64,000 nucleotides of DNA from Bolinopsis microptera (lineage: Eukaryota; Ctenophora; Tentaculata; Lobata; Bolinopsidae). The DNA lies in contig NC_087084.1 in assembly GCF_026151205.1 (NCBI RefSeq), positions 3,775,538 to 3,839,537 on the forward strand, written 5' to 3'. Numbering within the stretch: position 1 is the first letter of the stretch; each line of letters begins with the position of its first letter. Shown here piece after piece: positions 11,831-53,822 of the stretch. The notes beneath the pieces are model-generated. The model worked only from the letters and a program-made list of their open reading frames with translations, was not told the origin of the DNA and made no database searches. A program made the position numbers and the translations under genes.

Positions 11831-12420
11831 CGTGTGATCAGGAGATTGGGTTGGCAGGCTACCGGACAACTGAACCCAATTTGGACTTTTCCTAGACAGG
11901 GTAGCTTGGGAAAATAATTGTAAACCCAATCAGTCTACCTAATTAACTTTGAAACAACAACTGAACCCAATCGTCACAGAAAATCACAGTTTAACAGGTT
12001 TCCAAACACCGCTTTAGATTAGCTGCTGCCTGGTTTCTAGTGCTATAATTTCGGAGACAAAACAGAGACAATATTTCATTAATGTTATATTTTAATAGGT
12101 AATTGTAAATATATAATAATTGTTACTTAAAATCTCACACAAAGTCATCATAATATTTCTGCTTAAGCAGTAACATCGTGTCCAAAGCACTTATAAATCA
12201 TTATGATACCATCATCAATATTACAAACAGCACTCTTTATGATATTCAACAAAAATATATATATTTTTGTATATATAGACGTATATATATTTTGTATATA
12301 TTTTGTATATATAGACGTATATATACGTCTTCTCCGTCTTGTCAAAAAGTAGAGCGAACACCAAAGGGATGCACTTCTTATCGATGACAGCGTGGATGGA
12401 GTAACTCTGTTAGTCAGTCA
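11831..12420. other. Unassigned AT-rich stretch with ATATAT runs
   Basis: Contains several GATTGGGTT/AACCCAAT words in both orientations (11845-11970), a TATATA-rich part with two copies of TATATAGACGTATATATA at about 12275-12330, and no credible gene. Confidence 0.4.
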
Positions 12421-12421
12421 A

Positions 12422-13590
12422 CTATAGATGCCAAATGACACGATTAAGGTGCTGGAAGTTTGATTCGGGGTGGAGGAAGCTCACAGCAGAAATATTAACA
12501 AAACGTAAAGTTGTATTTTCAAAACTCAGTCCCATTTTCATATGTGAAAATTTCTGAACACACATTTGACAGATTGGATGAAATTTTTGCCCACAAACCA
12601 ATAAGTCAGTTAATTGATGATGGTATGAAACCAAATAAGGGTACTGGAAGTCAAAATCTCGAAAAAAATTGGAAAATCATACTGTCCCATACTCTGTCCC
12701 ATTTTCAGTTTTTGAAGTTAAAATTTCCAGGGCCGAAATTTTATAGTTTTGGCCGAATTTCTGACCTGCAACCAATTAGTCAGTCAACTATAGATGCCAA
12801 ATGACACGATTGAGGTGCTGGAAGTTTGATTCGAGTCGGAGGAAGCTGACAGCAAAAATCTTAACAAAACGAAAAGTTGTATTTTCAAAACTCTGTCCCA
12901 TTTTCAGATGTGAAAATTTCTGAACACAAATTTGACAGATTGGATGAAATTTTTGCTCACAAACCAATTAGTCAGTTAATTGATGATGGTATGAAACCAA
13001 ATAAGGGTACTGGAAGTCAAAATCTCGGAAAAAATTGGAAAATCATACTGTCCCATACTCTGTCCCATTTTCAGTTTTTGAAGTTAAAATTTCCAGGGCC
13101 GAAATTTTATAGTTTTGGCCGAATTTCTGTCAACTATAGATGCCAAATGACACGATTGAGGTGCTGGAAGTTTGATTCGAGTCGGAGGAAGCTCACAGCA
13201 AAAATCTTAACAAAACGAAAAGTTGTATTTTCAAAACTCTGTCCCATTTTCAGATGTGAAAATTTCTGAACACACATTTGACAGATTGGATGAAATTTTT
13301 GCCCACAAACCAATAAGTCAGTTAATTGATGATGGTATGAAACCAAATAAGGGTACTGGAAGTCAAAATCTCGGAAAAAATTGGAAAATCATACTGTCCC
13401 ATACTCTGTCCCATTTTCAGTTTTTGAAGTTAAAATTTCCAGGGCCGAAATTTTATAGTTTTGGCCGAATTTCTGTCAACTATAGATGCCAAATGACACG
13501 ATTGAGGTGCTGGAAGTTTGAATCGGGTCGGAGGAAGCTCACAGCAGAAAGCTTTAAAAACGAAAAGTTGTATTTTCAAAACTCTGTCCC
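12422..13590. repeat. Tandem array, about 3.3 copies of a 346-366 bp unit
   Basis: Unit starts (GATGCCAAATGACACGATT) at 12427, 12793, 13139 and 13485. The first unit is 366 bp, the next two are 346 bp; the 20-bp difference is the segment GACCTGCAACCAATTAGTCAG-like before the junction, present only once. Overlapping frames across the units come from the repeat and not from a gene. Confidence 0.9.
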
Positions 13591-14702
13591 ACTTTTAATC
13601 AGGGTTGGGAAAAATGTTTTTTCGTTTTTTTGAGAACCGGCGTTTTTTGCGTTTTTTTAAATGGTGGCCTTTTTTAATTTGAATAACCCTGTACCTACCC
13701 ACATCATTTGACCTTCTGCAAAATGGCAGTTATCCTAAAATTATTAATTTTGTTAACAAATGTTTGCAGGTTGTGCCAACAAAAAACGTTCGATATTTTT
13801 CAGCTTTATTTCTATGAGGCTATATGCTATACAAATTTGTCTCGGAATAGTAGCGTCAGGATTAATGATCATACTAACTATAACCACTGCGAATTTTTAA
13901 ACTCGAATTTGTAAACTATCGAATTTCAAATTTGCCAATTCGTAAAAAAGCATTTAAAATGAGAAAATATCACATTATATTATATTACTTTTAAGATATC
14001 ACATTACTTTTAAGTGCAATTGATTAATGATTACTTAGAAAGTCTGTTCGAATTTTCCACATAAATCTCTCGTGAGTCATGAGGCTGTGAAAACTTCGGG
14101 ATGCTGGCATTATGGTGATGGTTAAATAGACTAATAACAAGACCAAAAGAGGCCAGGTGGAGTCCAGCTAGCGATTGGAAACTTACCTGGGACCACAGGC
14201 TATCATGTTCATAAACATGCCGAATAAAGATTCCGCCGAATAAAGATTCGGCGGAATGACAGGCTAAGGGCCGCCCAGTAATTGGAAACAGAAGCAGTCA
14301 GGTTTACTTCCAGTTCCCCTCTTGAAGTTGTAAACGCGTCTGTGAGGGTACTGAAATATTCAGACTTTATTTTTATCTGCAATGTTGGGTGTTAATTACA
14401 AATCACATGAGGTTTTAAATACAGCTCCATATATTGAGGATGCTTGGATTATGGTAATGGGTAAGTTGACTAACACAGGAGCCAAATATAGTTAAAAACA
14501 GGTTGAGTCTAGCTTTAGCGATTGAAAACATAAACAGACATGTTTACAGGAGGGCAAGGGTGGCTCAGTTTGGTGAAAAACCAAAGTTCGCTATAAAACA
14601 GCTTGTTAAAATATCACTGCACCATTCTGATTTGAATAATTTTATAAATAACAAATCAACTTCATGATGTTCGTTCGGAGCATTATTTTCCTTTTCGCAG
14701 TT
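13591..14702. other. No gene; weak internal duplication
   Basis: About 14100-14200 and 14435-14550 share ordered words (ATGCTGGCATTATGGTGATGG / ATGCTTGGATTATGGTAATGG; GAGTCCAGCTAGCGATTGG / GAGTCTAGCTTTAGCGATTG), an old direct duplication. A short hairpin, TTCCGCCGAATAAAGATTCGGCGGAA, is at 14229-14256 (26 bases, interrupted here as stem CCGCCGAA / TTCGGCGG). Confidence 0.4.
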
Positions 14703-15354: not shown

Positions 15355-15814
15355 GAACTAAAAGTAAAATAAATATTTCAGAATATTCTAGAAGGTTATG
15401 GATTATTCTACAGGGTAGCCAAGCCTGCAGCCTAACAATTATTGATACATGGCATGCAACGTATGTCAAAACAATTATAATGAGTAATTCGATTTATCGA
15501 ATTTGCATTTTTATTGTTGAATATATGTTCATTTTCCATTCTATTATTATTATTGACGGCCCTTGCACAAACTAATCATTGAGGTTAAGACCGAGTTTGT
15601 TTGTCTATTTCTTGCTTCTCCAATTATCAAATTAGATTATAGCGGTGCTTTATTGAAATAACGATCCCTGGAGGTCTAATATAAATGTTTTGGGTCGCAG
15701 ACTGACATTAACCATAAAATCGTTTTCGCAAATTCCACCTTATAGATCATTTGGCTTGAAAATATGATCTTACTCGACATAGACAGGATTTTCTGCAGCT
15801 GGGCCTCCTATATT

Positions 15815-15898
15815 TACATTGTTTTATTTACGTTGTTTTATTTACGTTGTTTATTTACGTTATTTTATTTACGTTGTTTTATTTACGTTGTTTTATTT
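15815..15898. repeat. 14-bp minisatellite TTTTATTTACGTTG, short block
   Basis: About six copies, one shortened (TTTATTTACGTTG lacking one T), just before the larger block of the same unit. Confidence 0.85.
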
Positions 15899-16004
15899 TT
15901 GACCATTGTTAATGGTTTGGCCCGGCGCGCGCTTTTTCGTAGCACTTGCCGTCGGCGCGCGCTACTTCGAAAAAATTTATAGACGAGTAACATCCGTCAA
16001 TTTT
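15899..16004. repeat. GC-rich island between minisatellite blocks
   Basis: Contains two copies of GGCGCGCGCT, the second followed by ACTTCGAAAAAATTTATAG, then GACGAGTAACATCCGTCAA. The last part recurs reversed at about 51915-51945, so it belongs to a dispersed repeat. Confidence 0.5.
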
Positions 16005-16322
16005 ATTTACGTTGTTTTATTTACGTTGTTTTATTTACATTGTTTTATTTACGTTGTTTTATTTACGTTGTTTTATTTACAATGTTTTATTTGCTTTGTT
16101 TTATTTACGTTTTTTTATTTACGTTGTTTTATTTACGTTGTTTTATTTAAATTACGTTGTTTTATTTACGTTGTTTTATTTACGTTGTTTTATTTATGTT
16201 GTTTTATTTACGTTGTTTTATTTACGTTGTTTTATTTACTTTGTTTTATTTATATTTTTATTTACGTTGTTTTATTTACGTTGTTTTATTTACGTTGTTT
16301 TATTTACGTTGTTTTATTTACG
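16005..16322. repeat. 14-bp minisatellite TTTTATTTACGTTG, about 22 copies
   Basis: Head-to-tail copies with scattered substitutions (ACATTG, ATGTTG, GCTTTG) and two length variants near 16148 and 16255. Because the unit gives long stop-free frames rich in F, Y, L and V (FIYVVLFTLFYL), it mimics a membrane protein but is not a gene. Confidence 0.92.
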
Positions 16323-16999
16323 TCTGCTAAGCTAGGGATCTAAAATGAGAAGTACGGACTCGTTAAGGGGGAAAAGTATTTACTTGTAAGCAACTTTGAA
16401 AAGTCCGACTCATACGACGTACGATTCAGATAGAAATTTTTTGTTTTTGAATTATTATCATCGGGGCCGTTGTAAAATGTAATTGTTTGCCGATGTTAGA
16501 GAAAATATATCGTTCGCGAACAAATTAAACACACAATTCTTAGGTGATTAGGCAAGTATTTAAAAGTAAAACGAAAATTCTACAAAATTACCAGACAATT
16601 TACTTATTTAAACAGCTTGTTTCTCTTAAGGTTGAACTTTAAGTTAATCGATGATTGGAATATATGTAGAAACACAAGTTTTTGAAAACGCTCAATATTA
16701 GTCCGTAGCATGCGATTTAGAAATAGAACTCTTCCATCGATTTCTAGAAGGAGAACTTTTCAGTAGAATTGAAAAGTACGTACGATACGAGTAAATTGAA
16801 AGTCCGACTCATTCGTACTTCTAATCTTGGTTTATTACTGTTCAGAGCTATAAATCAGTCAAGTCAAGTTAAATCATTGCTAAAAATCAATCCAAACCCA
16901 ATAAGGTTTGCTTCACGGCCGGTTATCTATTCGGTAGTGATTTGCATTGAACAGGGCATAATATTAACACGTGATGATACTAGCTACGTTCTGTAATAA
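16323..16999. other. No recognisable feature
   Basis: Unique-looking AT-rich sequence with three GTCCGACTCATWCG-like words (about 16405, 16440 side, 16800). No gene or transposon end was found. Confidence 0.35.
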
Positions 17000-17518
17000 T
17001 GATATCACAATGCTGGCAAGCATGACCGTGCCTTTTATATTCACAATACTATTTACCCCCTTTATTATTTACCCCCTTTATTATTTACCCCCTTTACTAT
17101 TTACCCCCTTTACTTTTATACCCCTTTATTGTTTTTCGGGCATTAAGACTCATCGAAAGTAGTTCAGCAGGTATATTTAAGTTCAAATCATTCTAATTCA
17201 ATGTTAAAGATGACAGAAACAAGAAATAGTTATGTTGAGGTTTTTAAGAAATTTGCGCAAAATACGCGCCAGCATGTTATACGAAATTCGGTAAAAAACC
17301 CAAAATCGCCATATTCAGGTGCTTTAAAAACCATGTTAAAATTGAGTTAGAGATCTAAAACTTTGCAGGGCGTCTAGACGTTGACCAAATCGACTGTATA
17401 AAAAATTTCGTGTTTCAGGAGTATCGGGAAATGGGTTTTCTGGAACCCCTGTTTTACGATAGATTGTCGTGATATCTATCTATATATAGATGTCATCATG
17501 AATATATGTATATATACA
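17000..17518 (+). repeat. Module X, diverged copy (X0)
   Basis: Starts like X (TGCTGGCAAGCA), carries a five-fold TATTTACCCCCTT tandem repeat (17047-17130), then follows X closely (CATTAAGACTCATCG, AAAACCCAAAATCGCCATATTCAGG, GGCGTCTAGACGTTGACC, TACGATAGATTGTCGTGAT; words shown separately). It lacks the GC-rich double hairpin of X. Confidence 0.75.
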
Positions 17519-18026
17519 TTTGACCAAAACCCATAATCATGGGTAGAGTGGACCGCTGCCAGTGTCTCTCTTTCCCAAACAAAAGGAAATGATATTAATT
17601 TAATTGACCGTTCTCAAATGCAAAATGATACCGAAAATGAAATCGGTCGCTCGCTTTTCCCATTCATTCACGGCTTACGAATTGTAATAAGTTTCGATTG
17701 ATTAGGTACATCAATCAGATGCTGTAAAAATCTCTTTGGGTTGCGTTCGGGTCGATACCTAGTATTTCGGGGTAAGGGTGGTAGTTATTACTTATTGAAT
17801 TAGCTGAAGTTTATTGAATCTTTATTGCCGAGTACAGCTGCCTTCGGGTAGTTCTTCTTAATCTATTACAATTGTAAATGAATAGGAAAAGCGAGCGACC
17901 GATTTCATTTTCGGTATCATTTTGCATTTGAGAACGGTCAATCAAATTAATATCATTTCCTTTTCTTTGCGAAAGAGAGACACTGGCAGCGGTCCACTCT
18001 ACCCATGATTATGCGTTTTGGTCAAA
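17519..18026 (+). mobile_element. 0.5 kb MITE, copy 1
   Basis: Ends TTTGACCAAAACCCATAATC and its reverse complement, with terminal inverted repeats of about 140-150 bp. The interior reads CACGGCTTACGAATTGTAAT first, taken here as plus orientation. It has no coding capacity. Confidence 0.9.
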
Positions 18027-18747
18027 TATCATCTCTTTTTGATTATAATGTCAGGGTACTTTATTTATAAAGTCGAAATATAAACTGATATCTTCATTAA
18101 TAAGGAGGAAGTTTCAACAATTTCGAAATTTTTCCTTTAAAAACATTTCCTTGTGTTTAGGTAAGCATATCGGTCGATCACTGACTGAATATGCCACTTG
18201 ATACTCATTCAAGTTGGCATTAAATTCATTTATAAAGACATTAAACTGTCGTGGCAAAGCAGAATTTGTTGGAAATCACGAATGAGCAAAATTCTCACCT
18301 TTCGCACGTGCAAACTTTGAGCGGACGTTGCGTGCGCATCCAATATTGAATCGCCGTAACTTTTTGCATGTAATTGTTTTATATATAGCTTGATAAGCAT
18401 GCAAAGTTTCAAAGTATTTCAAGAAGAACTGTAATCACAACGGCACTCTAAAGTTGACAGAAAATGACGAAAACAGCAATTTTTAGTGATTTTAGCAATT
18501 TTCTATCAATTTGGGCGTGTCCCCACGTGTGCAACTTTTTGATTTTTAACTTTAAAACTAGCCTAATGCACAATTTCTACCTATAGGAAGCAGAACTGAG
18601 CTCCACAACCCAAGGCATGGCCCAACACCAGAGAATACTAAATCGCAAAATTGACGTTTTTATAAAATAATTCTTCAAAAAAGCACAAACTTCAATGACG
18701 AATATCTTTATGAAGGAGCAAGCTAGAAAAATTTTCCGGTAGATTTT
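18027..18747 (+). repeat. Module B, copy 1
   Basis: From TATCATCTCTTTTTGATTAT to GGTAGATTTTCAGAAT. Near-identical to 26744-27464 and slightly diverged from 21874-22596. Non-coding; contains GCACGTGC and GCGTGCGC words. Confidence 0.85.
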
Positions 18748-19061
18748 CAGAATTTATTTTTAATTGTAGTTGACGAAATGAGAGTCTCCACTCAGTGTGT
18801 TAAAACATAATTCTTTGTCGACGTTTCGGCTACATGCCTTTGTCATAAACAGGACGTACTGAAAACTTACATAGCTGCAAAGATACAATGTTAAAATAAT
18901 CTATTAATACTACGAAATATAACAACAACAAATAACATCTTGAAACCCATAAACGATCACAAAATTTTTTTCCAAAAGAAACATAAAATATAACGGCTAA
19001 AAGAATCCACACCGCAACAAGCCGTGAACAATTCCTCATAGTACTACAAACATTTTACCAA
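18748..19061 (+). repeat. Module C, copy 1 (Penelope-like 3' region, reversed)
   Basis: From TTATTTTTAATTGTAGTTGA to ATTTTACCAAGAT. On the minus strand it carries GGCATGTAGCCGAAACGTCG, the degenerate hammerhead-like motif described at 25773-25800. Confidence 0.8.
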
Positions 19062-19606
19062 GATCACAGTGCTGGCAAGCACGAGCGGTGTCTTTATTGG
19101 GGGTATACTATGTACCCCCTTTACTATTGTACCCCCTTTACTATTATACCCCCTTTGGTACTCGTCGGAAGCCGCTTTCGTGCACGCGAAGCGTGCACTC
19201 CGGCCGGAGGCGGCGGCCGAAGGCCGCCGCCTCCGGCAGGAGTTTTTCAGGCATTAAGACTCATCGGAAGTCGTTCAGCAGATTTATTTTTAGTTCAAAA
19301 CATTCTAATTTGATGTCAAAGATGAAAGGAATAAAAATAGTTATGTTGAGATTTTTAAGAAATTTGCATAAAATACTCGCCAGCACTGTTATACGAAATT
19401 CGGTAAAAAACCCAAAATCGCCATATTCAGGTGCCTTAAAAACCATGTTAAAATTGAGTTAGAGATCTGAAATTTTTCAGGGCGTCTAGACGTTGACCAA
19501 ATCGACTGCAAAAAAAGTTTCAGGTTTCAGGAGCATCGGGAAGTGGGTTTTCTAGAACCCCTGTTTTACGATAGATTGTCGTGATACATATATACATATA
19601 TATATA
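19062..19606 (+). repeat. Module X, copy 1, with GC-rich double hairpin
   Basis: Starts CACAGTGCTGGCAAGCAC, then three GTACCCCCTTTACTAT-type repeats, two GAA-loop hairpins (19180-19198, 8-bp stem; 19204-19236, 15-bp stem), and ends in a TATATA tract. Its reverse complement is the spacer of the large palindrome (22898-23441). Confidence 0.85.
19180..19236. other. Two adjacent perfect hairpins with GAA triloops
   Basis: First: GTGCACGC-GAA-GCGTGCAC (19180-19198). Second: CCGGAGGCGGCGGCC-GAA-GGCCGCCGCCTCCGG in three parts at 19204-19218, 19219-19221, 19222-19236. The core GCGAAGC of the first is the DNA mini-hairpin known for extreme stability. The same pair, reversed, is at about 23268-23326. 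Confidence 0.95.
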
Positions 19607-20110
19607 TTTTACCAAAACCCATATTCATGGGTAGAGTGGACCGCTGCCAGTGTCTCTCTTTCCCAAACAAAAGGAAATGATATTAATTTGATTGACCGTT
19701 CTCAAATGCAAAATGATACCGAGAATGAAATCGGTCGCTCGCTTTTCCCATTCATTTACAATTGTAATAGATTAAGAAGATCTACCCAAAGGCAGCTGTA
19801 CTCGGCAATAAAGATTCAATAAACTTCAGCTAATTCAATAAGCAATAACTACTACCCTTACCCCGAAATACTAGGTATCGATCCGAACGCAACCCAAAGA
19901 GATTTTTACAGCATCTGACTGATGTAATCAATCGAAATTTATTACAATTCGTAAGCCGTGAATGAATGGAAAAAGCGAGCGACCGATTTCATTCTCGGTA
20001 TCATTTTGCATTTGAGAACGGTCAATCAAATTAATATCATTTCCTTTTGTTTGGGAAAGAGAGACACTGGCAGCGGTCCACTCTACCCATGAATATGGGT
20101 TTTGGTAAAA
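19607..20110 (-). mobile_element. 0.5 kb MITE, copy 2 (outer left of the palindrome)
   Basis: Ends are TTTTACCAAAACCCATATTC and its reverse complement; the subtype differs from copies 1, 3 and 4 (TTTGACC). Interior is in minus orientation (CATTTACAATTGTAATAG first). Pairs with copy 5 across the palindrome. Confidence 0.88.
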
Positions 20111-20130
20111 TCTATCTATATATATATATA

Positions 20131-20483
20131 TTCAGGGATAGACGCTTTGCCAGTCAATTGTAGCCTGTATTTAATTGTCCATAGATTCAAAAGTATAAAA
20201 GATACAGCCATTTCCGACCACAGGTCTTGAAAATAATTGTTTACACTTTAGTTTACATTGTATAAACAAATTATTTGACGTCATGAACACCCCAATTGAT
20301 AACGTCATCAAGTTAACCGTTTTTAAAACTTGATTTTTGACAAAGTAATAACTTTTAAAATTAATTTTAAACCATTAAGGAGTAATTTTATTCAAAATCT
20401 GAGGAAATTTTAACCTTAGATAATTGTTCAAGCATTCTGAAAATCTGGTTATCTTGTTTTGCTCTTATGAGTGGGTCAATCAT
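20131..20483 (+). repeat. Module D, copy 1 (long form)
   Basis: Begins TTCAGGGATAGACGCTTTGC after a TATATA tract; includes TTATTTGACGTCATGAACACC and ends with GGTTATCTTGTTTTGCTCTT plus GAGTGGGTCAATCAT. Paired with 25867-26220. Confidence 0.85.
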
Positions 20484-20795
20484 TTATTTTTAATTGTAGT
20501 TGACGAAATGAGAGTCTCCACTCAGTGTGTTAAAACATAATTCTTTGTCGACGTTTCGGCTACATGCCTTTGTCATAAACAGGACGTACTGAAAACTTAC
20601 ATAGCTGTAAAGATACAATGTTAAAATAATCTATTAATACTACGAAATATAACAACAACAAATAACATCTTGAAACCCATAAACGATCACAAAATTTTTT
20701 TTCCAAAAGAAACATAAAATATAACGGCTAAAAGAATCCACACCGCAACAAGCCGTGAACAATTCCTCATAGTACTACAAACATTTTACCAAGAT
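20484..20795 (+). repeat. Module C, copy 2
   Basis: Same as 18748-19061 apart from a few bases, directly joined to palindrome E at AAGATAGCTCC. Confidence 0.82.
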
Positions 20796-21364
20796 AGCTC
20801 CTTCATAAAACTGATTAATCTAAAATTATCTAGGTTAATAAGTTCAATATTACATTAACTTCCAAGTATATTTTATCCATTCACCTTCATTTACGGACTC
20901 AGACAATTGAGTATTTATTTCTGGGTTTTCACGTTTTATTAGAACCGACTGCCACAATTGACGGTCCACATAGTCTTTACATCTTTTTCGAACTATAAAC
21001 CGAAACGGTATGTTTGGCATTGAAATGTCTGCATGATCCTCTAGGTAGTGCTTCCCCATGGCCGTAGATTAGTAAGGGATGGCAACAAATCTACGGCCAT
21101 GGGGAAGCACTACCTAGAGGATCATGCAGACATTTCAATGCCAAACATACCGTTTCGGTTTATAGTTCGAAAAAGATGTAAAGACTATGTGGACCGTCAA
21201 TTGTGGCAGTCGGTTCTAATAAAACGTGAAAACCCAGAAATAAATACTCAATTGTCTGAGTCCGTAAATGAAGGTGATTGGATAAAATATACTTGGAAGT
21301 TAATGTAATATTGAACTTATTAACCTAGATAATTTTAGATTAATCAGTTTTATGAAGGAGCTAT
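20794..21364. repeat. Palindrome E, copy 1: two inverted ends of a GIY-YIG/Penelope-like frame
   Basis: Arms 20794-21070 and 21088-21364 (277 bp each) are reverse complements around a 17-bp spacer. Each arm encodes, reading outwards, the same 69-codon tail (minus strand 21059-20850, plus strand about 21099-21308): MGKHYLEDHAD, then F-x-F-I-V, DYVDRQLWQSVLIKREN and PEINTQLSES. H..DH, R..WQS.LI and P.INT resemble the C-terminal part of GIY-YIG endonuclease domains of Penelope-like elements; the catalytic GIY-YIG block itself is absent. One residue differs between arms (E or D before WIKYTW). Family call is tentative. Confidence 0.7.
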
Positions 21365-21873
21365 TTGACCAAAACCCATAATCATGGGTAGAGTGGACCG
21401 CTGTCAGTGTCTCTCTTTCCCAAACAAAAGGAAATGATATTACTTTGATTGACCGTTCTCAAATGCAAAATGATACCGAGAATGAAATCGGTCGCTCGCT
21501 TTTCCCATTCATTCACGGCTTACGAATTGTAATAAGTTTCGATTGATTACATCAATCAGATGCTGTAAAAATCTCTCTGGGTTGCGTTCGGGTCGATACC
21601 TAGTATTTCGGGGTAAGGGTGGTAGTTATTAGTATTACTTATTGAATTAGCTGAAGTTTATTGAATCTTCATTGCCGAGTACAGCTGCCTTTGGGTAGTT
21701 CTTCTTAATCTATTACAATTGTAAATGAATGGGAAAAGCGAGCGACCGATTTCATTCTCGGTATCATTTTGCATTTGAGAACGGTCAATCAAAGTAATAT
21801 CATTTCCTTTTGTTTGGGAAAGAGAGACACTGACAGCGGTCCACTCTACCCATGATTATGGGTTTTGGTCAAA
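21364..21873 (+). mobile_element. 0.5 kb MITE, copy 3
   Basis: TTTGACC subtype, plus orientation. Flanked by TA on both sides (GAGCTA before, TATCATC after), between E and B, which suggests a TA target duplication. Confidence 0.88.
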
Positions 21874-22596
21874 TATCATCTCTTTTTGATTATAATGTCA
21901 GGGTACTTTATAAAGTCGAAATATAAACTGATATCTTCATTAATAAGGAGGAAGTTTCAACGATTTCGAAATATATCCTTTAAAAACATTTCCTTGTGTT
22001 TAGGGAAGCATATCGGTCGATCACTGACTGAATATGCCACTTAATACTCATTCAAGTTGGTATTAAATTCATATATAATGACATTAAACTGTCGTGGCAA
22101 AGCAGAATTTGTTGGAAATCACGAATGAGCAAAATTCTCACCTTTCGCACGTGCAAACTTTGAGCAGACGTTGCGTGCGCATCCAATATTGAATCGCCGT
22201 AAATTTTTGCATGTAATTGTTTTATATATAGCTTGATAAGCATGCAAAGTTTCAAAGTATTTTAAGAAGAACTGCAATCACAACGGCACTCTAAAGTTGA
22301 CAGAAAATGACGAAAACAGCAATTTTCAGTGATTTTAGCGATTTTCTATCAATTTGGGCGTGTCCCAACGTGTGCAACTTTTCGATTTTCAACTTTAAAA
22401 CTAGCCTATGACACAATTTATACCTATAGGAAGCAGAACTGAGTTCCACAACCCAAGGCATGGCCCAACACCAGAGAATACTAAATCGCAAAATTGACGT
22501 TTTTATAAAATAATTCTTCAAAAAAGCACAAACTTCAATGACGAATATCTTTATGAAGGAGCAAGCTAGAAAAACTTTCTGGTAGATTTTCAGAAT
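21874..22596 (+). repeat. Module B, copy 2
   Basis: As copy 1 with a few percent difference (for example TTAATACTCATTCAAG, ATATATAATGACATT). Joined to D at the shared word GATTTTCAGAAT. Confidence 0.82.
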
Positions 22597-22897
22597 GCTT
22601 GAACAATTATCTAAGATGAAAATTTCCTCAGATTTTGAATAAAATTACTCCTTAATGGTTTAAAATTAATTTTAAAAGTTATTACTTTGTCAAAAATCAA
22701 GTTTTAAAAACGGTTAACTTGATGACGTCATCAAGGGGTGTTTATGACGTCATATAATTTTTTTATACAATGTAAACTAAAGTATAAACAATTATTTGCA
22801 AGACCTGTGGTCGGAAATGGCTGTATCTTTTATACTTTTGAATCTATGGACAATTAAATACAGGCTACAATTGACTGGCAAAGCGTCTATCCCTGAA
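22586..22897 (-). repeat. Module D, copy 2 (short form)
   Basis: Reverse complement of D, with the variant TGATGACGTCATCAAGGGGTG, a CRE-like TGACGTCA palindrome; lacks the GGTTATC...CAATCAT tail of copy 1. Confidence 0.82.
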
Positions 22898-23441
22898 TAT
22901 ATATATATATGTATATATGTATCACGACAATCTATCGTAAAACAGGGGTTCTAGAAAACCCACTTCCCGATGCTCCTGAAACCTGAAACTTTTTTTGCAG
23001 TCGATTTGGTCAACGTCTAGACGCCCTGAAAAATTTCAGATCTCTAACTCAATTTTAACATGGTTTTTAAGGCACCTGAATATGGCGATTTTGGGTTTTT
23101 TACCGAATTTCGTATAACAGTGCTGGCGAGTATTTTATGCAAATTTCTTAAAAATCTCAACATAACTATTTTTATTCCTTTCATCTTTGACATCAAATTA
23201 GAATGTTTTGAACTAAAAATAAATCTGCTGAACGACTTCCGATGAGTCTTAATGCCTGAAAAACTCCTGCCGGAGGCGGCGGCCTTCGGCCGCCGCCTCC
23301 GGCCGGAGTGCACGCTTCGCGTGCACGAAAGCGGCTTCCGACGAGTACCAAAGGGGGTATAATAGTAAAGGGGGTACAATAGTAAAGGGGGTACATAGTA
23401 TACCCCCAATAAAGACACCGCTCGTGCTTGCCAGCACTGTG
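22898..23441 (-). repeat. Module X, copy 2: spacer of the large palindrome
   Basis: Reverse complement of 19062-19606, including the double GAA hairpin (as TTC loops) and the GGGGGTAC repeats. It ends GCTTGCCAGCACTGTGAT. Confidence 0.88.
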
Positions 23442-23444
23442 ATA

Positions 23445-23757
23445 TTCAGGGATAGACGCTTTGCCAGTCAATTGTAGCCTGTATTTAATTGTCCATAGAT
23501 TCAAAAGTATAAAAGATACAGCCATTTCCGACCACAGGTCTTGCAAATAATTGTTTATACTTTAGTTTACATTGTATAAAAAAATTATATGACGTCATAA
23601 ACACCCCTTGATGACGTCATCAAGTTAACCGTTTTTAAAACTTGATTTTTGACAAAGTAATAACTTTTAAAATTAATTTTAAACCATTAAGGAGTAATTT
23701 TATTCAAAATCTGAGGAAATTTTCATCTTAGATAATTGTTCAAGCATTCTGAAAATC
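23445..23757 (+). repeat. Module D, copy 3 (short form)
   Basis: Mirror partner of copy 2 across the spacer, with the same TGATGACGTCATCAAG variant. Confidence 0.82.
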
Positions 23758-24468
23758 TACCAGAAAGTTTTTCTAGCTTGCTCCTTCATAAAGATATTCG
23801 TCATTGAAGTTTGTGCTTTTTTGAAGAATTATTTTATAAAAACGTCAATTTTGCGATTTAGTATTCTCTGGTGTTGGGCCATGCCTTGGGTTGTGGAACT
23901 CAGTTCTGCTTCCTATAGGTATAAATTGTGTCATAGGCTAGTTTTAAAGTTGAAAATCGAAAAGTTGCACACGTTGGGACACGCCCAAATTGATAGAAAA
24001 TCGCTAAAATCACTGAAAATTGCTGTTTTCGTCATTTTCTGTCAACTTTAGAGTGCCGTTGTGATTGCAGTTCTTCTTAAAATACTTTGAAACTTTGCAT
24101 GCTTATCAAGCTATATATAAAACAATTACATGCAAAAATTTACGGCGATTCAATATTGGATGCGCACGCAACGTCTGCTCAAAGTTTGCACGTGCGAAAG
24201 GTGAGAATTTTGCTCATTCGTGATTTCCAACAAATTCTGCTTTGCCACGACAGTTTAATGTCATTATATATGAATTTAATACCAACTTGAATGAGTATTA
24301 AGTGGCATATTCAGTCAGTGATCGACCGATATGCTTCCCTAAACACAAGGAAATGTTTTTAAAGGATATATTTCGAAATCGTTGAAACTTCCTCCTTATT
24401 AATGAAGATATCAGTTTATATTTCGACTTTATAAAGTACCCTGACATTATAATCAAAAAGAGATGATA
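23747..24468 (-). repeat. Module B, copy 3
   Basis: Mirror partner of copy 2 (21874-22596). Confidence 0.82.
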
Positions 24469-24986
24469 TTTGACCAAAACCCATAATCATGGGTAGAGTG
24501 GACCGCTGTCAGTGTCTCTCTTTCCCAAACCTCCAAACAAAAGGAAATGATATTACTTTGATTGACCGTTCTCAAATGCAAAATGATACCGAGAATGAAA
24601 TCGGTCGCTCGCTTTTCCCATTCATTTACAATTGTAATAGATTAAGAAGAACTACCCAAAGGCAGCTGTACTCGGCAATGAAGATTCAATAAACTTCAGC
24701 TAATTCAATAAGTAATACTAATAACTACCACCCTTACCCCGAAATACTAGGTATCGACCCGAACGCAACCCAGAGAGATTTTTACAGCATCTGATTGATG
24801 TAATCAATCGAAACTTATTACAATTCGTAAGCCGTGAATGAATGGGAAAAGCGAGCGACCGATTTCATTCTCGGTATCATTTTGCATTTGAGAACGGTCA
24901 ATCAAAGTAATATCATTTCCTTTTGTTTGGGAAAGAGAGACACTGACAGCGGTCCACTCTACCCATGATTATGGGTTTTGGTCAAA
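24469..24986 (-). mobile_element. 0.5 kb MITE, copy 4, with an 8-bp insertion
   Basis: TTTGACC subtype in minus orientation. TTTCCCAAACCTCCAAACAA shows a small duplication of CCAAAC that copy 3 lacks. Flanks are GATGATA and TAGCTCC, again TA on each side. Confidence 0.88.
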
Positions 24987-25556
24987 TAGCTCCTTCATAA
25001 AACTGATTAATCTAAAATTATCTAGGTTAATAAGTTCAATATTACATTAACTTCCAAGTATATTTTATCCAATCACCTTCATTTACGGACTCAGACAATT
25101 GAGTATTTATTTCTGGGTTTTCACGTTTTATTAGAACCGACTGCCACAATTGACGGTCCACATAGTCTTTACATCTTTTTCGAACTATAAACCGAAACGG
25201 TATGTTTGGCATTGAAATGTCTGCATGATCCTCTAGGTAGTGCTTCCCCATGGCCGTAGATTTGTTGCCATCCCTTACTAATCTACGGCCATGGGGAAGC
25301 ACTACCTAGAGGATCATGCAGACATTTCAATGCCAAACATACCGTTTCGGTTTATAGTTCGAAAAAGATGTAAAGACTATGTGGACCGTCAATTGTGGCA
25401 GTCGGTTCTAATAAAACGTGAAAACCCAGAAATAAATACTCAATTGTCTGAGTCCGTAAATGAAGGTGATTGGATAAAATATACTTGGAAGTTAATGTAA
25501 TATTGAACTTATTAACCTAGATAATTTTAGATTAATCAGTTTTATGAAGGAGCTAT
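24986..25556. repeat. Palindrome E, copy 2
   Basis: Mirror of copy 1, centre at 25271. The plus-strand frame 25291-25500 ends in TAA and is followed in the same direction by module C (25556-25866), so E-right plus C looks like the 3' end of one Penelope-like element: endonuclease tail, 3' untranslated part, hammerhead-like motif. Confidence 0.75.
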
Positions 25557-25866
25557 CTTGGTAAAATGTTTGTAGTACTATGAGGAATTGTTCACGGCTT
25601 GTTGCGGTGTGGATTCTTTTAGCCGTTATATTTTATGTTTCTTTTGGAAAAAAAATTTTGTGATCGTTTATGGGTTTCAAGATGTTATTTGTTGTTGTTA
25701 TATTTCGTAGTATTAATAGATTATTTTAACATTGTATCTTTACAGCTATGTAAGTTTTCAGTACGTCCTGTTTATGACAAAGGCATGTAGCCGAAACGTC
25801 GACAAAGAATTATGTTTTAACACACTGAGTGGAGACTCTCATTTCGTCAACTACAATTAAAAATAA
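25556..25866 (-). repeat. Module C, copy 3
   Basis: Mirror of copy 2. On the plus strand it reads away from the E frame and holds the motif at 25773-25800, then ends in AATTAAAAATAAATGA. Confidence 0.82.
25773..25800 (+). ncRNA. Degenerate hammerhead-ribozyme-like motif
   Basis: TATGACAAAGGC-ATGTA-GCCGAAACGTC: a GGC/GCC stem II, GAAAC and GTC fit the hammerhead layout CUGANGA-stem II-GAAA-stem III-NUH that is common in Penelope-like elements. However, the C3 and G8 positions are A and A here, so catalysis is unlikely. All four copies of module C share this sequence. Confidence 0.3.
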
Positions 25867-26220
25867 ATGATTGACCCACTCATAAGAGCAAAACAAGATA
25901 ACCAGATTTTCAGAATGCTTGAACAATTATCTAAGGTTAAAATTTCCTCAGATTTTGAATAAAATTACTCCTTAATGGTTTAAAATTTATTTTAAAATTT
26001 ATTACTTTGTCAAAAATCAAGTTTTAAAAACGGTTAACTTGATGACGTTATCAATTGGGGTGTTCATGACGTCAAATAATTTGTTTATACAATGTAAACT
26101 AAAGTGTAAACAATTATTTTCAAGACCTGTGGTCGGAAATGGCTGTATCTTTTATACTTTTGAATCTATGGACAATTAAATACAGGCTACAATTGACTGG
26201 CAAAGCGTCTATCCCTGAAT
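25867..26220 (-). repeat. Module D, copy 4 (long form)
   Basis: Mirror of copy 1 including the GATTGACCCACTCATAAGAG tail; small differences such as TTTATTTTAAAATTTATTAC. Confidence 0.82.
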
Positions 26221-26239
26221 ATATATATATATAGATAGA

Positions 26240-26743
26240 TTTTACCAAAACCCATATTCATGGGTAGAGTGGACCGCTGCCAGTGTCTCTCTTTCCCAAA
26301 CAAAAGGAAATGATATTAATTTGATTGACCGTTCTCAAATGCAAAATGATACCGAGAATGAAATCGGTCGCTCGCTTTTTCCATTCATTCACGGCTTACG
26401 AATTGTAATAAATTTCGATTGATTACATCAGTCAGATGCTGTAAAAATCTCTTTGGGTTGCGTTCGGATCGATACCTAGTATTTCGGGGTAAGGGTAGTA
26501 GTTATTGCTTATTGAATTAGCTGAAGTTTATTGAATCTTTATTGCCGAGTACAGCTGCCTTTGGGTAGATCTTCTTAATCTATTACAATTGTAAATGAAT
26601 GGGAAAAGCGAGCGACCGATTTCATTCTCGGTATCATTCTGCATTTGAGAACGGTCAATCAAATTAATATCATTTCCTTTTGTTTGGGAAAGAGAGACAC
26701 TGGCAGCGGTCCACTCTACCCATGAATATGGGTTTTGGTAAAA
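26240..26743 (+). mobile_element. 0.5 kb MITE, copy 5 (outer right of the palindrome)
   Basis: TTTTACC subtype in plus orientation; mirror partner of copy 2. Right flank ATATCATC is the start of module B. Confidence 0.88.
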
Positions 26744-27464
26744 TATCATCTCTTTTTGATTATAATGTCAGGGTACTTTATTTATAAAGTCGAAATATAA
26801 ACTGATATCTTCATTAATAAGGAGGAAGTTTCAACAATTTCGAAATTTTTCCTTTAAAAACATTTCCTTGTGTTTAGGTAAGCATATCGGTCGATCACTG
26901 ACTGAATATGCCACTTGATACTCATTCAAGTTGGCATTAAATTCATTTATAAAGACATTAAACTGTCGTGGCAAAGCAGAATTGTTGGAAATCACGAATG
27001 AGCAAAATTCTCACCTTTCGCACGTGCAAACTTTGAGCGGACGTTGCGTGCGCATCCAATATTGAATCGCCGTAACTTTTTGCATGTAATTGTTTTATAT
27101 ATAGCTTGATAAGCATGCAAAGTTTCAAAGTATTTCAAGAAGAACTGTAATCACAACGGCACTCTAAAGTTGACAGAAAATGACGAAAACAGCAATTTTT
27201 AGTGATTTTAGCAATTTTCTATCAATTTGGGCGTGTCCCCACGTGTGCAACTTTTTGATTTTTAACTTTAAAACTAGCCTAATGCACAATTTCTACCTAT
27301 AGGAAGCAGAACTGAGCTCCACAACCCAAGGCATGGCCCAACACCAGAGAATACTAAATCGCAAAATTGACGTTTTTATAAAATAATTCTTCAAAAAAGC
27401 ACAAACTTCAATGACGAATATCTTTATGAAGGAGCAAGCTAGAAAAATTTTCCGGTAGATTTTC
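26744..27464 (+). repeat. Module B, copy 4
   Basis: Forms, with module C copy 4, a direct repeat of 18027-19078, so the palindrome is flanked on both sides by B-C in the same orientation. Confidence 0.85.
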
Positions 27465-27780
27465 AGAATTTATTTTTAATTGTAGTTGACGAAATGAGAG
27501 TCTCCACTCAGTGTGTTAAAACATAATTCTTTGTCGACGTTTCGGCTACATGCCTTTGTCATAAACAGGACGTACTGAAAACTTACATAGCTGCAAAGAT
27601 ACAATGTTAAAATAATCTATTAATACTACGAAATATAACAACAACAAATAACATCTTGAAACCCATAAACGATCACAAAATTTTTTTCCAAAAGAAACAT
27701 AAAATATAACGGCTAAAAGAATCCACACCGCAACAAGCCGTGAACAATTCCTCATAGTACTACAAACATTTTACCAAGAT
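27465..27780 (+). repeat. Module C, copy 4
   Basis: Practically identical to 18748-19061. Confidence 0.82.
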
Positions 27781-27798
27781 CACAGTGCTGGCAAGCAC
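27781..27798 (+). repeat. 18-bp stub of module X
   Basis: CACAGTGCTGGCAAGCAC, the first 18 bases of X, then unrelated sequence (CGGGGTCG). This marks the right border of the mosaic. Confidence 0.8.
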
Positions 27799-28227
27799 CG
27801 GGGTCGTATGTGCAGTGAAGTTTGTTTCAGGTGTATAGTATGATGGAGGAGCACTTGCCCTGGTGGCGGATAATGCCCTGCACCAGCAGTCCACCCCAGC
27901 CTTGCTGGTGGCGATAATACCCTGAACTCTGCTGTCCAACACCAACATTAGTTTGGTGGCGGGGGATTTGGTAAACCTACTGTGGTCTCTGCTACTCCTG
28001 TGGCCTCCCTATCCGATGGCTTCCCTGAACCTATGGCGTTGAAGATCCTGGAGCGTTCACTATTTCTGATGAGTCATTGGTTCTGGCGGTGATAGTATTT
28101 GTTTGTGGCAACAGTAACAAACGAAATCAATAACAGGTATTCCTGCCAGCATCCAAAAACTAGCCTATATTTTTGCTACGGTACCCACTCTCTCCTTGAA
28201 TCATTATTATAAGTTGATATCTTTCCC
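27799..28227. repeat. GC-richer stretch with three imperfect 50-bp repeats
   Basis: At about 27857-27965 the words CTGGTGGCG, GATAATRCCCTG, GCWGTCCA and ACCCCAGC/ACACCAAC recur three times, about 50 bp apart. No gene recognised. Confidence 0.5.
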
Positions 28228-28540
28228 GTCTCTGAAGAAGGAAGTTCTCCGCTTGAATCGTAGGAAGTTTTCAAGCGCTCCTTGAAGTCGTGTATTTTCA
28301 GAGCGTCTCCTTGATCGTCGGTAGTTTTCAGAGCGTCCTCCCTTGAATCGTAGTATTTTTTTTCAGAGCGTGCGCCCTTGAATCGTAGGTAGTTCAGAGC
28401 GTCCCTCCTTGAATCGTGGGTAGTTTAGAGCGTCTCCTGAATCGTAGGTATTTTCAGAGCGTCTCCTTGAATCGTAGGTTGTTGATTCGTCTTCTTGTAT
28501 CGTAATTAGTATGACCGTTCTTCTGAATCGTCGAGTTATG
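28228..28540 (+). repeat. Minisatellite, about 33-36 bp unit
   Basis: Eight to nine imperfect copies of TTTTCAGAGCGTCTCC-TTGAATCGTAGGTAG with small indels. Confidence 0.85.
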
Positions 28541-29615: not shown

Positions 29616-31304
29616 GTGAGTCCATGATAATAATTACTCATCAAGTCATTGAAGTAAATGTATGGAGAGTTTTGTTTTCACAATTGTGGTCACCAATTTT
29701 ATGATGCAATCAACTATTTCGCCAGGGAAAGACTACCTGATTTCCCTTCGACAAATATATATCAGACTTCGACTAGGCAATACAAGAAGTTAATTTTCAA
29801 AGATATGCTCACGATTTTATCTTATCATCATTTTGTTTGATAGATTCCTGAATCAACAGATTTGCATTGATATTCAGATATTCAGAAACTAAAGAACGCG
29901 ATGTTTTCTTTGCCTGTCAGTTAGAAAATTAAAGAGATTAATAAATTTATTGATTTTAAGTCAACAAACATCGATTTGCCGAGTTTGTACTTATAATTGT
30001 ATAAATTCCCAACCCCCCTGGGCCAGGTCAACTAGAATCTGATAAACTGATAAATCCAGATCTAGCCCTTCAGGCACTAACAACAGTCTAGGTATTTTAT
30101 ACTAGTCGACCTTATACACAATTACACATCACATCAACAAGAATAAAATATATAAACTCTTCCCACAGCATAAGAAAATAGCACAACAGAAATATATTAT
30201 CATAACACAAAAGTCCCACTTTTCAAACACAAATAGTTCAACAATACAGTACAAAAATTATACCATCTACAAACTGATATAATAAATTATATACATTATA
30301 TTATAATTGATCCTAATTTACAAATAGCATAATAAACTACTTTATTTACATTTACATCAATAAATAAAAGCTACGCATACCTACAATGAAAACTGAGAAT
30401 TCAGAGTACGTAAGATTTCCCATACATACAAGAAAACGAATCCGGACAAGATAAAAATATCATTAACTATACTATCGGGTACGAATCATGCGTGAAAAAA
30501 TTAAACGAGAAAAACATAAAGCACATACTATTTCACATGATTATTTCTTTCGTGGATCGGATAAGTCCATCAGCAGGAGCAGACACGAGAATAGTTCCTC
30601 AGAAATCTTATCCATTCAAAGAACACTAGATATTGCGCCCTGGTATTGTATCTTAATGTACACATTGTAGCTTGCAGAAGGTCGTTGTTCCATTCCGTTG
30701 TTACTTCCTCATCTATTGAAGGATTATATATCTATTATAAAAAATACCCACAAGTATTTCCTAGTATCTACTTTATGATATATCTACGAATACAATCACT
30801 GCCAAGATAAAAAACTTCAAATCTATTTTAGTGTTGTTAAAAATTATTGCTAGGACAAGGTAGTGACAGTTGATAATTTATTTACCTTCGTGAATTGTCC
30901 AAAAATATGATATTGATGCTTCACTCGTAGCCGAATTTTCTTGAGAAAAACAACACACTGAGAGGTATAAAAAATGACAAAGATGCGAAGTAGTTAAAAA
31001 CATTGTTTTTGGCAATAAAGTTACGTATTACATTACTCATGATAGTATCTAAATTACGTGGAGGAAACATTTATTATATCCAAGTTGAGAAAAACAGCAA
31101 TAAACGTACCCAAGCCCTGATGCCGTTGCGGACCCTGTCTCCGTGGTCCCAATAGGAGCCACATGTGTTATCAGAAAATGACAGTGTTATCAGGAATCTC
31201 CTTCCATTTCGCAGCACATTCCTCCCTCTCTTTAGGTTATAACCCCAGTTTTCCATACAATTTGGCTGGTTGGGTACCTGAGTACGGCATTTCGTGCACT
31301 GACA
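29616..31304. other. No recognisable feature
   Basis: AT-rich. Short frames at 29658 (+), 30488 (+) and 31074 (-) lack convincing starts or splice sites; the last ends in a GTACGT donor-like site and could be an exon, but nothing else supports it. Confidence 0.3.
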
Positions 31305-32165
31305 GCAAGATACATTGTACTAACTAATCTACTAGTAAACAGCATGATACATTGTACTAACTAATCAACTAGTAACAGCAGATACATAGGTACTAAACTA
31401 ATCTCCTAGTAAACATCAAGTACATTGAACTAACTAACTACTAGTAAACAGCAGATACAGTTGTACAAACTATCTACTAATAAACAGCAAGATTACAATG
31501 TACAAAACTAACAACTAGTAACCAGCAAGATACAATTGTACTACCTAATCAACTAGTAAACGGCAAGAATACATTGTACTAACTAATCTACTAATTAAAC
31601 AGCAAGGTAAAATTTTACTAACTAATCACTAGAAAACATCAAGATACATTGAACTAACTAATCTACTAAAAAAACAGCAATATACATTGACTAACTAATC
31701 TATTACTAATAAACAGCAAGATACATTGTACTAACTATCTCTATGAACGCAAGATACATTGTACTAACTAATCTACTAATAAACAGCAAGATACATTGTA
31801 CTAACTAATCTACTAATAAACAGCAAGATACATTGTACTAACTAATCTACTAGTAAACAGCAAGATACATTGTACTAACTAATCTACTAGTAAACAGCAA
31901 GATACATTGTACTAAGTAATCTACTAATAAACAGCATGATACATTGTATAACTAACTACTAAAAAACGCAAGATACATTGTACAACTAATCAACAAGTAA
32001 ACAGCAGATACAGTGTAACTAACAATCTACTAGTAAACAGCAAGATACATTGTACTAACTAATCTACTAGTAAACAGCAGATACATTGTACAAAGTAATC
32101 ACTAGTAAGACAGCAGAATGTTTACATATCCTAAGTAATCTACGGTAAACAGCAAGATATGGCCG
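31305..32165 (+). repeat. 37-bp minisatellite, about 23 copies
   Basis: Unit AACAGCAAGATACATTGTAC-TAACTAATCTACTAGTA. Copies in the middle (about 31760-31920) are nearly perfect; the edges carry many single-base deletions. Confidence 0.93.
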
Positions 32166-52194: not shown

Positions 52195-53822
52195 TTACCA
52201 CTGGTCTTGCTCCTCCATAGAATTCACAACTAAGATCTGAACAGCACTTAGCGCCAAGCCAGCGATGATAGCAATTTGCGGTGAAGCAAAAGAAACCAAA
52301 GCGGTGCCGGCTACCGCTGCCATCGAACTTGCACCTTGCATTATGCCAGATCCAATAGCCATCCCATTTTTTCCGAAATATCGAACGTCGTAGCTTATGT
52401 AATTCTTTTCCATTGAGATCATCCCGTATACCAATTTTCCTAAAAATGTCATGACCACAATAACGATTAGGTTTTTTTCGATGAGCAGCAACATCAAGTA
52501 GCTGGCTAAAATAATCACGGCAAGCGAGGTGTACAAAATTCTAAATCTAATCTTCTTTCTGATGATCGGAGATGCAATTCTTCCTAGTCCTGCTGCTCCT
52601 GCAACAAATGCCAGGGGGAAGAATTGAGTTCCTTGAGTGACTGTTTCGCAGTTGGTACCTTCTCCTCCAACTTCTTTTACGTTGAAAAGTCGTATCAATG
52701 AAGGTAAGAGTAGAATAGTCCCCCAGCCTTGGTAGTTATTAATGATGACAAAAAAGCACAGTTTTAATAGTCTCATTTTGAAATTTGGTACCTCCACAGC
52801 TTTTGCTTTTCCATTTTCAGTTGGTTCTGTTTGGTTGATTGTTTCCAAATTGGAGCTGTCTTTTAAGAAAATGTGTAGGATTAAAATTGGAGGAATGAAA
52901 ATTGGAAGAGAGGCGATGAGCAGGAATGTTCTCCAGCCGAGCAGATCTAGACTGAAATACCCGATAACTGGAATCCAGATACTGCCTACAGAGTAACCTA
53001 AGCCACTAACCAGTATTAAAGTATTCATAATCTTCTTACTGCTAGCTTTCTCGGCCTGAAACACGAAGGTGACAGACATATTCAATCCCACAGTGAAGCC
53101 TATGAGGGCCCTTGAGAGTAGGAGAGTCAGGTAGTTCCCCGCCACAGAACAGACAATGGTGCTCACTATACTACCGTAGAGGGACTGGCAGATAGTTTCT
53201 CGTCGGCCAAATCTGTAATTAGAATAATTTGAGGGAATTGAAAAGTTCTCAACTACCAAAAATGAGCAACTAAACAACAAACCATGATGTTGCCTAGTAT
53301 TAGTAAAAGTATAAACGGTACACTGTACAGGTACCTCGAGCGTGGTAAGATGAGTTGAGGACTTCCAGTCCTCATATTCACAGTTCAGTATTTAACTATT
53401 ACAGTCGCACTGAAGCTCTTACCGAGTAGATAAGGGACCTGCAGCAAAGGTAGTAATCCCCATTGTTAAATAAAGAATGCAGCCTAGAATTCCTTCCTGC
53501 CAATCATTAACTCCAATTTCGCAGGCCACGTATTGTGTTAAAACACCTGCAGAATTTCAAAGTCATGCAAAATCCTTGACAATGGGTAGCATAATGTTCG
53601 CAAGAAACTGCTTAATCTGTTAATTTCAATTCAGTTTTTTTCAAAGTTATCATTCTTATAAGAGTGATATTTTAGGAATTTGAAAATACCTGGTAAATAT
53701 ATCTCGATGCCATCCCCGATATTGATAAGCAGTCCAAAGAAAAGAAGAATCCAATCCTTTGTTGTCCAAGTATCGTCCGTCTTTTGGAGAAGATCACTTT
53801 GTTCGCCTAAGCTTTCTCCCAT
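52195..53822 (-). CDS. Major facilitator superfamily transporter (SV2/SLC22-like), three exons, 424 aa
   Basis: Exons on the minus strand: 53822-53690 (133 bp), 53546-53423 (124 bp), 53212-52195 (1018 bp with TAA). Donors GTATTT and GTAAGA, acceptors CTGCAG and ATTACAG; phases 1 and 2 fit and the joined frame is open throughout. Exon 1 begins MGESLGEQSDLL and reaches TM1 (DWILLFFGLLINIGDGIEIY). Exon 2 holds CEIGVNDWQEG and TM2. Exon 3 opens with FGRRET, the MFS loop 2-3 signature, then LLLSRALIGFTVGLN (TM4). A central hydrophilic loop (SSNLETINQTEPTENGK) splits two six-helix halves; MQGASSMAAVAGTALVSF is near the end. DGIEIYLPG and CE-G-V resemble SV2/SVOP and organic-ion transporters. At 424 aa it is somewhat short for that group, mainly because the extracellular loop after TM1 is small. 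Substrate unknown; plasma or vesicle membrane inferred. Confidence 0.9.

Follow-up and report, generated by a model that had tools for sequence, protein, structure and literature searches.

Layout of the locus

The window analysed here is a 64,000-nucleotide stretch of the genome of the ctenophore Bolinopsis microptera (C13:3775538-3839537 of a 264.65-Mb assembly in 232 contigs, to which all genome searches below refer). Its subject is a repeat mosaic at 17005-27798 which, judged from sequence, appears to consist of two known kinds of transposon, a Helitron-like element (R) and a Penelope-like retroelement (T), nested in each other several times and then reshuffled by recombination. At its centre lies a palindrome formed by a 3.84-kb inverted insertion into one R copy.

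Self-comparison of the window showed that segments X, B, C, D and E and a 0.57-kb palindrome (M) each occur two to five times in both orientations between 17005 and 27798, in agreement with a preliminary description of this DNA. The main inverted repeat pairs 19604-22900 with 26746-23442 (3,305 aligned bp, 99.6% identical, far above chance) and encloses a 541-bp spacer. An outer direct repeat, made of B-C-D copies on either side, pairs 17502-19082 with 26223-27798 at 98.2% identity and bears out the direct B-C repeats reported on both sides of the palindrome. The sharp 18-bp stub of X reported at the end was also found, at 27780-27798 (19 bp counting its initial T). The six modules described earlier are real repeats and are pieces of only two families, R and T. 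A junction word does recur at module edges, where ATTTTCAGAAT is simply the target duplication of T in R; the word that had been placed at the B/D junction, GATTTTCAGAAT, lies at C/D and C/E. The features are as follows.

17005..17517, plus strand: X belonging to R', an older R copy that has diverged and is the outermost host; 82-91% identical to R 1-554 in pieces; 5' terminus TCACAATGCTGGCAAGCAT, with an AT-rich tract on the 3' side as the insertion place of the next R
17518..18753, minus strand: R copy Z (B minus, C plus), split by T; R 2097-864, 95.6%
18743-18753: first copy of the target duplication of T, ATTTTCAGAAT, the last 11 bp of Z
18754..19063, plus strand: first arm of T (segment D), cut by the R copy R-A, which is inserted after the A at D/M
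19064..19606, plus strand: 5' part of R-A (X), with exact 5' terminus, reaching to the point of insertion in (AT)n
19605..20111: example of a B segment, with ~155-bp inverted ends, each carrying an outward-facing 3'-hairpin motif
19607..23442, minus strand: the 3.84-kb inverted insertion, 5'-TCACAGTG ... GGTAAAA-3' between A and T, without duplication
21363-19607, minus strand: captured M, D, tail, E and B2 within the inverted insertion
21364..23442, minus strand: full-length R, the 5' side of the inverted insertion; 98.1% to R 1-2097
23443..24986, plus strand: remainder of R-A (E, C minus, B plus), 98.3%; 3' end ...GGTCAAA before T, hairpin intact
24987..25905: remainder of T, with the 0.57-kb palindrome M, second arm (D minus) and ~37-bp tail
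25906..25916: second copy of the target duplication of T, ATTTTCAGAAT
25906..26239, minus strand: E of R copy Z; R 550-876, 96.7%
26240..27469, minus strand: hybrid R copy, whose B2 minus resembles the neighbour R-Y and whose C plus resembles Z; 47 of 47 variant columns, one switch
26719-26744: inner end of B2 in the hybrid R, a hairpin-motif match serving as pseudo-3' end of the inverted insertion
27470..27779, plus strand: second D copy, beginning the next tandem unit
27780..27798, plus strand: 19-bp X stub, where the duplicated nest gives way to low-copy sequence

R is a Helitron-like repeat

X, E, C (reversed) and B adjoin one another in a ~2.1-kb repeat, R, and had the same order in all 30 copies fetched; the varying module order reported before arises mostly from insertions that split this contiguous unit. 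A genome search with window 19604-23446 as query gave 222 matches, from which 35 candidates were scored, the window's own copy not being among them, so that copy numbers are lower bounds. The best matches were ~2.1-kb blocks running from query ~1745-1760 to 3840-3843, at no fewer than 36 near-full-length places (93-98% identity), and the first 18 bp of X had 739 exact occurrences in the genome (368 forward, 371 reverse). Genomic matches fetched with their surroundings for annotation carry L numbers below.

The 5' edge TCACAGTGCTGG was present in 30 of 30 fetched copies, partly by construction, X being in the query, and gives R the 5'-TC terminus of canonical Helitrons. An A stood at position -1 in 29 of the 30 and a T at +1 in all of them; the 3' end was located in this count by a motif that includes the following T, which is also seen at the ends of copies in unrelated surroundings. 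Copies in unrelated surroundings begin with TCACAGTGCTGG directly after A and finish mostly with GGTCAAA or GGTAAAA directly before T. No target duplication was seen in the flanks of these 30 copies, and the empty sites at the D/M junction of T and at a sister site described below likewise display insertion between A and T without duplication. A hairpin, CCCATGAWTATGGG (-4.8 kcal/mol, z -2.2 and -2.4), is found 10-11 nt inside the 3' end. Segment B has ~155-bp inverted ends, and the 3'-hairpin motif occurs at both edges of all five B segments in the window (10 matches, nine of them exact and one with a single mismatch).

On these features R looks like a non-autonomous Helitron-like element. 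Apart from CTRR, its terminal features are those described for Helitrons in the available text of PMC4067079 and PMC4778049. With the Helibat/Helraiser group, including its non-autonomous members, R shares the 5'-TC, the preceding A and following T, the lack of duplication, a palindrome ~11 nt before the 3' end, head-to-tail copies and apparent read-through into flanks. It differs in ending with (C/A)AAA rather than CTRR, in having no autonomous partner linked to it among the Helitron_like_N matches, and in a 3' end placed within a 0.5-kb near-palindrome that gives a hairpin in both orientations. Because its ends are not CTRR, we file R as Helitron-like and not as a canonical Helitron. Helentrons, HINE and DINE-1 elements resemble it in being non-autonomous and in having an internal (AT)n microsatellite, short tandem repeats and a 3' palindrome, as far as the available text of PMC4067079 describes them, whereas R inserts between A and T instead of showing their T-rich preference. 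HINEs are also described as having subterminal inverted repeats. The family Helitron_like_N had 41 matches in the genome, many of them in long open frames, compared with none in 14 control genomes, so that the enzyme may have a source in this genome. Searches of the literature with short sequence words of R found no record of it.

T is a Penelope-like retroelement

Genome-wide copies of T join a ~37-bp tail, D (311 bp) and half of the palindrome (~294 bp), and in many of them the reverse complement of tail, D and half-palindrome follows after variable DNA. The copies have the inverted arms and short tail of Penelope-like elements, the tail mostly at one end and at both in L058. Target duplications of ~8-12 bp were found in eight of the ten both-armed copies examined (L044, L045, L047, L049, L050, L059, L063 and L066; with an uncertainty of 1-2 bp in the end for L047, L050 and L066, and an A-run lying between in L063) and were not clear in L058 and L061. 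The window copy has an 11-bp duplication, ATTTTCAGAAT, inside R. The D/M junction is uninterrupted (...CCAAGATAGCTCC...) in at least one arm of 25 of 25 T loci (L043-L068, sister site excluded), and some second arms end before it (L059, L061).

Inside L072 are two frames in inverted arrangement (680 and 683 codons), and both still run open where the fetched stretch ends. RYVDDCF and NKSYIGETGR in the 683-residue frame are, on reading by eye, what we take to be reverse transcriptase and GIY-YIG motifs, unconfirmed by Pfam or PDB. Each half of the 0.57-kb palindrome continues the frame of T to its stop codon and holds the last 73 codons. The palindrome had been described as an independent 0.5-kb miniature inverted-repeat transposable element (MITE); it is not a non-coding unit with ends and a duplication of its own, and a Foldback or MITE origin is rejected, since its halves are coding and part of T. 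The locus resembles Foldback elements in its long inverted repeats, but these come from nested families and one inverted insertion, and no recurring foldback unit was found.

We consider T a Penelope-like retroelement, with D and the 0.57-kb palindrome as its inverted 3' ends. According to the available text of PMC3846280, Penelope elements have pLTRs in inverted orientation, one of which bears a 31-bp tail, and duplications of 8-10 bp. Endonuclease-containing members such as Pen2 of Adineta vaga, as presented there, share with T the inverted pLTR-like arms, a tail of 31-37 bp that is mostly at one end, short target duplications and a single long frame; T differs in that its frame is without a match in the libraries used, and its identity comes from structure and motifs read by eye.

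Penelope-like elements can carry hammerhead ribozymes, and one was sought in D. An Rfam search of 18700-21400 with E values up to 5 returned only three microRNA models, all under gathering score and all on the palindrome; at the gathering threshold there was no Rfam match anywhere in the window.

Nest order and insertion hot spots

The order of nesting can be read from the junctions. T lies within R copy Z at the C/E boundary, with ATTTTCAGAAT on both sides (18743-18753 and 25906-25916), and R-A lies within T, after the A of the D/M junction, where the uninterrupted T copies provide the empty site. Z itself is placed after the AT-rich end of the older X (17005-17517).

Such placements recur. 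Both flanks lay in other R sequence in nine of the 30 fetched R copies, and one flank did in two more (L020, L029). In six of the nine (L010, L011, L017, L018, L024, L026) both flanks were at the (AT)n between X and E, so that the (AT)n of R is a frequent target; in L010, L011, L017, L018 and L026 the R lying in another copy's (AT)n is inverted. The junction of T with R, between ATTCTGAAAAT and CTACC of R, was found exactly at three further places, on C1 (L074), C4 (L075) and C11 (L043), and once more on C11 with two mismatches. T is differently truncated at the C1, C4 and C11 places, and the host R copies are of different divergence; at the C4 place the C part is 89% identical to the window and D 97%. 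These differences in truncation and identity disfavour the spread of R and T as one unit. They favour repeated entry of T at a single R base position, by independent hits at a hot spot, and a target preference of this Penelope-like element for that position is possible.

In L034 (1501-3599) and L051 (near 95) the 5' end of R stands directly against a B end, and the L034 copy is then followed by C. This arrangement corresponds to insertion directly beside the hairpin end of another copy.

A sister site provides the empty site

The same nest occurs ~130 kb away on the same contig, at C13:3929635-3943188. The order in its second unit is B2-, C+, D+, then R without interruption (X+ E+ C- B+), followed by M, D-, tail, E-, B2- C+ E- X-; this unit is the nest without the palindrome and serves as an empty site, with a target sequence equal to the two insertion flanks of the window joined. 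Comparison with empty sites, as the preliminary description had proposed, thus defined the insertion ends through this site and the uninterrupted D/M junctions.

Its first unit resembles the palindromic form in the window. The left half is rich in insertions and deletions (94.6%, 118 gap openings against the window), and a homopolymer smear of ~0.8 kb at C13:3933396-3934231 (L053, L041) occupies the palindrome centre, with the indel-rich arm alongside; the smear is likely to be failed sequencing at the palindrome. Part of the sister site may conceivably be an assembly duplicate.

Searches with single junctions separate the locus from a mobile composite. All four exact genome places of the D/X junction lie in the window locus and the sister site, with two more places at two mismatches on C3 and C8. 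The B/M junction has four exact places and one with a single mismatch, all again in these two loci. The preliminary description had envisaged a modular element built up from defined cassettes and mobile as a whole. Segments do share sharp ends, and one step did combine several of them; however, the exact D/X and B/M junctions are confined to these two loci and every segment belongs to R or T, each family having its own ends, so this explanation is largely refuted and we regard it as scarcely credible. Modules occurring elsewhere with clean ends of their own, and junctions specific to the locus, are the pattern that had been named as excluding such an element, and it is largely what was found. 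The junctions that do recur elsewhere are those of R into (AT)n and of T into R, as hot spots, and the composite junctions do not recur exactly. Likewise, the sharp edges of the supposed cassettes are real and are transposon ends. Growth by acquiring and inverting segments holds for one step, the 3.8-kb insertion with Helitron-like ends; nesting and recombination explain most of the mosaic.

The inverted insertion

Relative to the uninterrupted R-A of the sister site, the window carries an extra 3,836 bp (19607-23442), inverted and placed between A and T of the (AT)n, where no base was lost or gained. From the 5' end of R, the insert runs through X, E, C and B, past the 3' end of R itself, and on through M, D, tail, E and B2. 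It terminates precisely where the neighbour's B2 has its inner end, and the pseudo-3' end there is an exact match to the hairpin motif. Its X is identical to that of R-A over 545 bp, and its R part has no substitutions against R-A in 2,078 aligned positions, gaps not counted; among the 435 pairs formed by the 30 other R copies the median identity was 98.0%, and one pair (L019, L020) was as close. Identity of the insert is 99.64% both to the sister segment (3,843 aligned bp) and to the right arm in the window (3,305 aligned bp), the latter comparison showing four substitutions and an 8-bp indel. A family consisting of X and B was considered and rejected: in the window the X/B junction is the edge of the inverted insertion.

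From these end positions, the loss-free insertion and the identity, we infer that the palindrome is a Helitron read-through product re-inserted inverted into its parent. In the available text of PMC4778049, read-through of Helraiser to an alternative downstream terminator was shown experimentally and was more frequent when the hairpin was lost; 39 of 395 bat copies had new 3' ends, one of them by bypass.

Two other origins of the palindrome were weighed. In the first, R-A gave rise to a copy that entered the (AT)n of R-A itself in inverted orientation, and later an inverted ectopic gene conversion copied B2-E-tail-D-M from right to left through the homologous ~155-bp B ends. Inverted R copies do recur in the (AT)n of other R copies (five of the 30, listed above), the B ends are inverted homologs of each other, and the stop hairpin of R-A is intact. 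This route nevertheless requires two events, the second of which must copy a tract whose limit falls precisely on a hairpin end, between A and T; moreover, the left outermost B end is of the donor B2 type (differing from the right arm once in the B2 alignment), and there is no trace of a first B end. Self-insertion and conversion taken together appear unlikely to us, though they retain some weight.

In the second, the palindrome is a library or assembly artefact (an inverted chimera, or a missing adapter), with the two loci being in part a double assembly of a single one. The near-identical nests ~130 kb apart are suspicious, as are the smear and the many indels in the left half of the sister's first unit, as if reads had failed at the palindrome. 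A chimera would not be expected to begin at the exact 5' terminus of R and finish at an exact hairpin end, nor to sit without loss between A and T of a known target, and the arms differ by the substitutions and indel given above. We judge an artefact at the palindrome, together with an assembly duplicate as part of the sister site, very improbable.

Several observations weigh against read-through, or against the identities given to R and T. The 3' hairpin of R-A is itself an exact match (24962-24987), and with it intact the bypass is not explained by a damaged stop. At fetched loci outside the sister site, C follows 38 of 39 inner B ends and the remaining one (L051) meets the 5' end of an R, overlapping loci not having been removed from this count. 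A single event of read-through form was seen, and the sister's first unit is weak evidence because of its poor sequence. R lacks the CTRR-3' terminus, and none of the 41 Helitron_like_N matches was linked to R ends. For the L072 frame of T, Pfam returned no family even at E 10, and a PDB sequence search gave no meaningful match (two rows, at E 0.17 and 0.65).

The right-hand copy and the end of the nest

The right-hand B-C (26240-27469) was compared with Z and with R-Y of the sister site. The first 23 variant columns agree with R-Y and the next 24 with Z, so all 47 fit a single switch close to where B meets C; because some adjacent columns are part of one indel, the independent variants are fewer. 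Given this single clean switch, one unequal crossover between neighbouring R copies fits. The sequence beyond the stub (27799-28250) matches the genome at one other place, on C1 at 93%, and no X terminus was present in the ~250 bases fetched before it. A different Helitron family starting at the 27780 stub was rejected on this ground, and a break is preferred.

Surrounding sequence

Just to the left of the nest lie two arrays of a 14-bp unit resembling TTTTATTTACGTTG (15811-15898 and 16001-16323). Further tandem arrays occupy 12417-13596 (346-bp unit, 3.4 copies) and 31302-32159 (37-bp unit, 23 copies). Minus-strand open frames at 307-1023 (238 aa) and 2237-4522 (761 aa) have no Pfam family above cut-off; by eye they resemble a transposon-type DNA polymerase. 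A minus-strand frame at 52195-53391 belongs to the major facilitator superfamily of transporters (Pfam MFS_1, E 3e-19).

Proposed history and implications

Nesting and recombination would explain most of the mosaic, and we think it probable that the following history of insertion, crossover and read-through is correct as a whole. An R would first have landed within an older R at its (AT)n, as the anatomy supports. T, as a 1.2-kb head-to-head pair of Penelope-like ends, would then have landed in R at C/E, a step shown by its 11-bp duplication. A second R, R-A, would have landed in T after the A at D/M, as the uninterrupted T copies show. Unequal crossover between neighbouring R copies may next have produced the tandem nest, supported by the one variant switch. 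A rolling-circle copy of R-A, begun at its own 5' end, would have overrun its own 3' hairpin and continued through T and E, to halt at the hairpin in the B segment of the neighbour; since the 3' end is present in B in either orientation, a hairpin of the neighbour faces inward. This 3.84-kb copy would have been inserted inverted into the (AT)n of R-A, giving the palindrome. Finally, the nest would have come to lie, wholly or in part, twice on the contig, as is seen in the assembly, the window copy ending in the X stub.

As far as its sequence indicates, the locus is not a new type of element that spreads; recognisable kinds of transposon, together with recombination, account for most of it, and what appeared to be a new modular element can be resolved into two families. 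For the R family a further, less probable reading is that a stop signal carried in both orientations on a built-in palindrome would make any inverted neighbour a working stop, so that clusters of R may be prone to forming composites that swallow the intervening DNA, here a retroelement, with the (AT)n as landing strip. The two repeated hot spots, R into the (AT)n of R and T into one R position, amount to testable targeting rules. Helitron read-through was previously known from cell culture with a reconstructed bat element, in the available text of PMC4778049. Here the parent element, its uninterrupted sister copy and the apparent read-through product stand in one genome, with ends, stop and target readable to the base: an instructive case of what looks like Helitron read-through next to its source.

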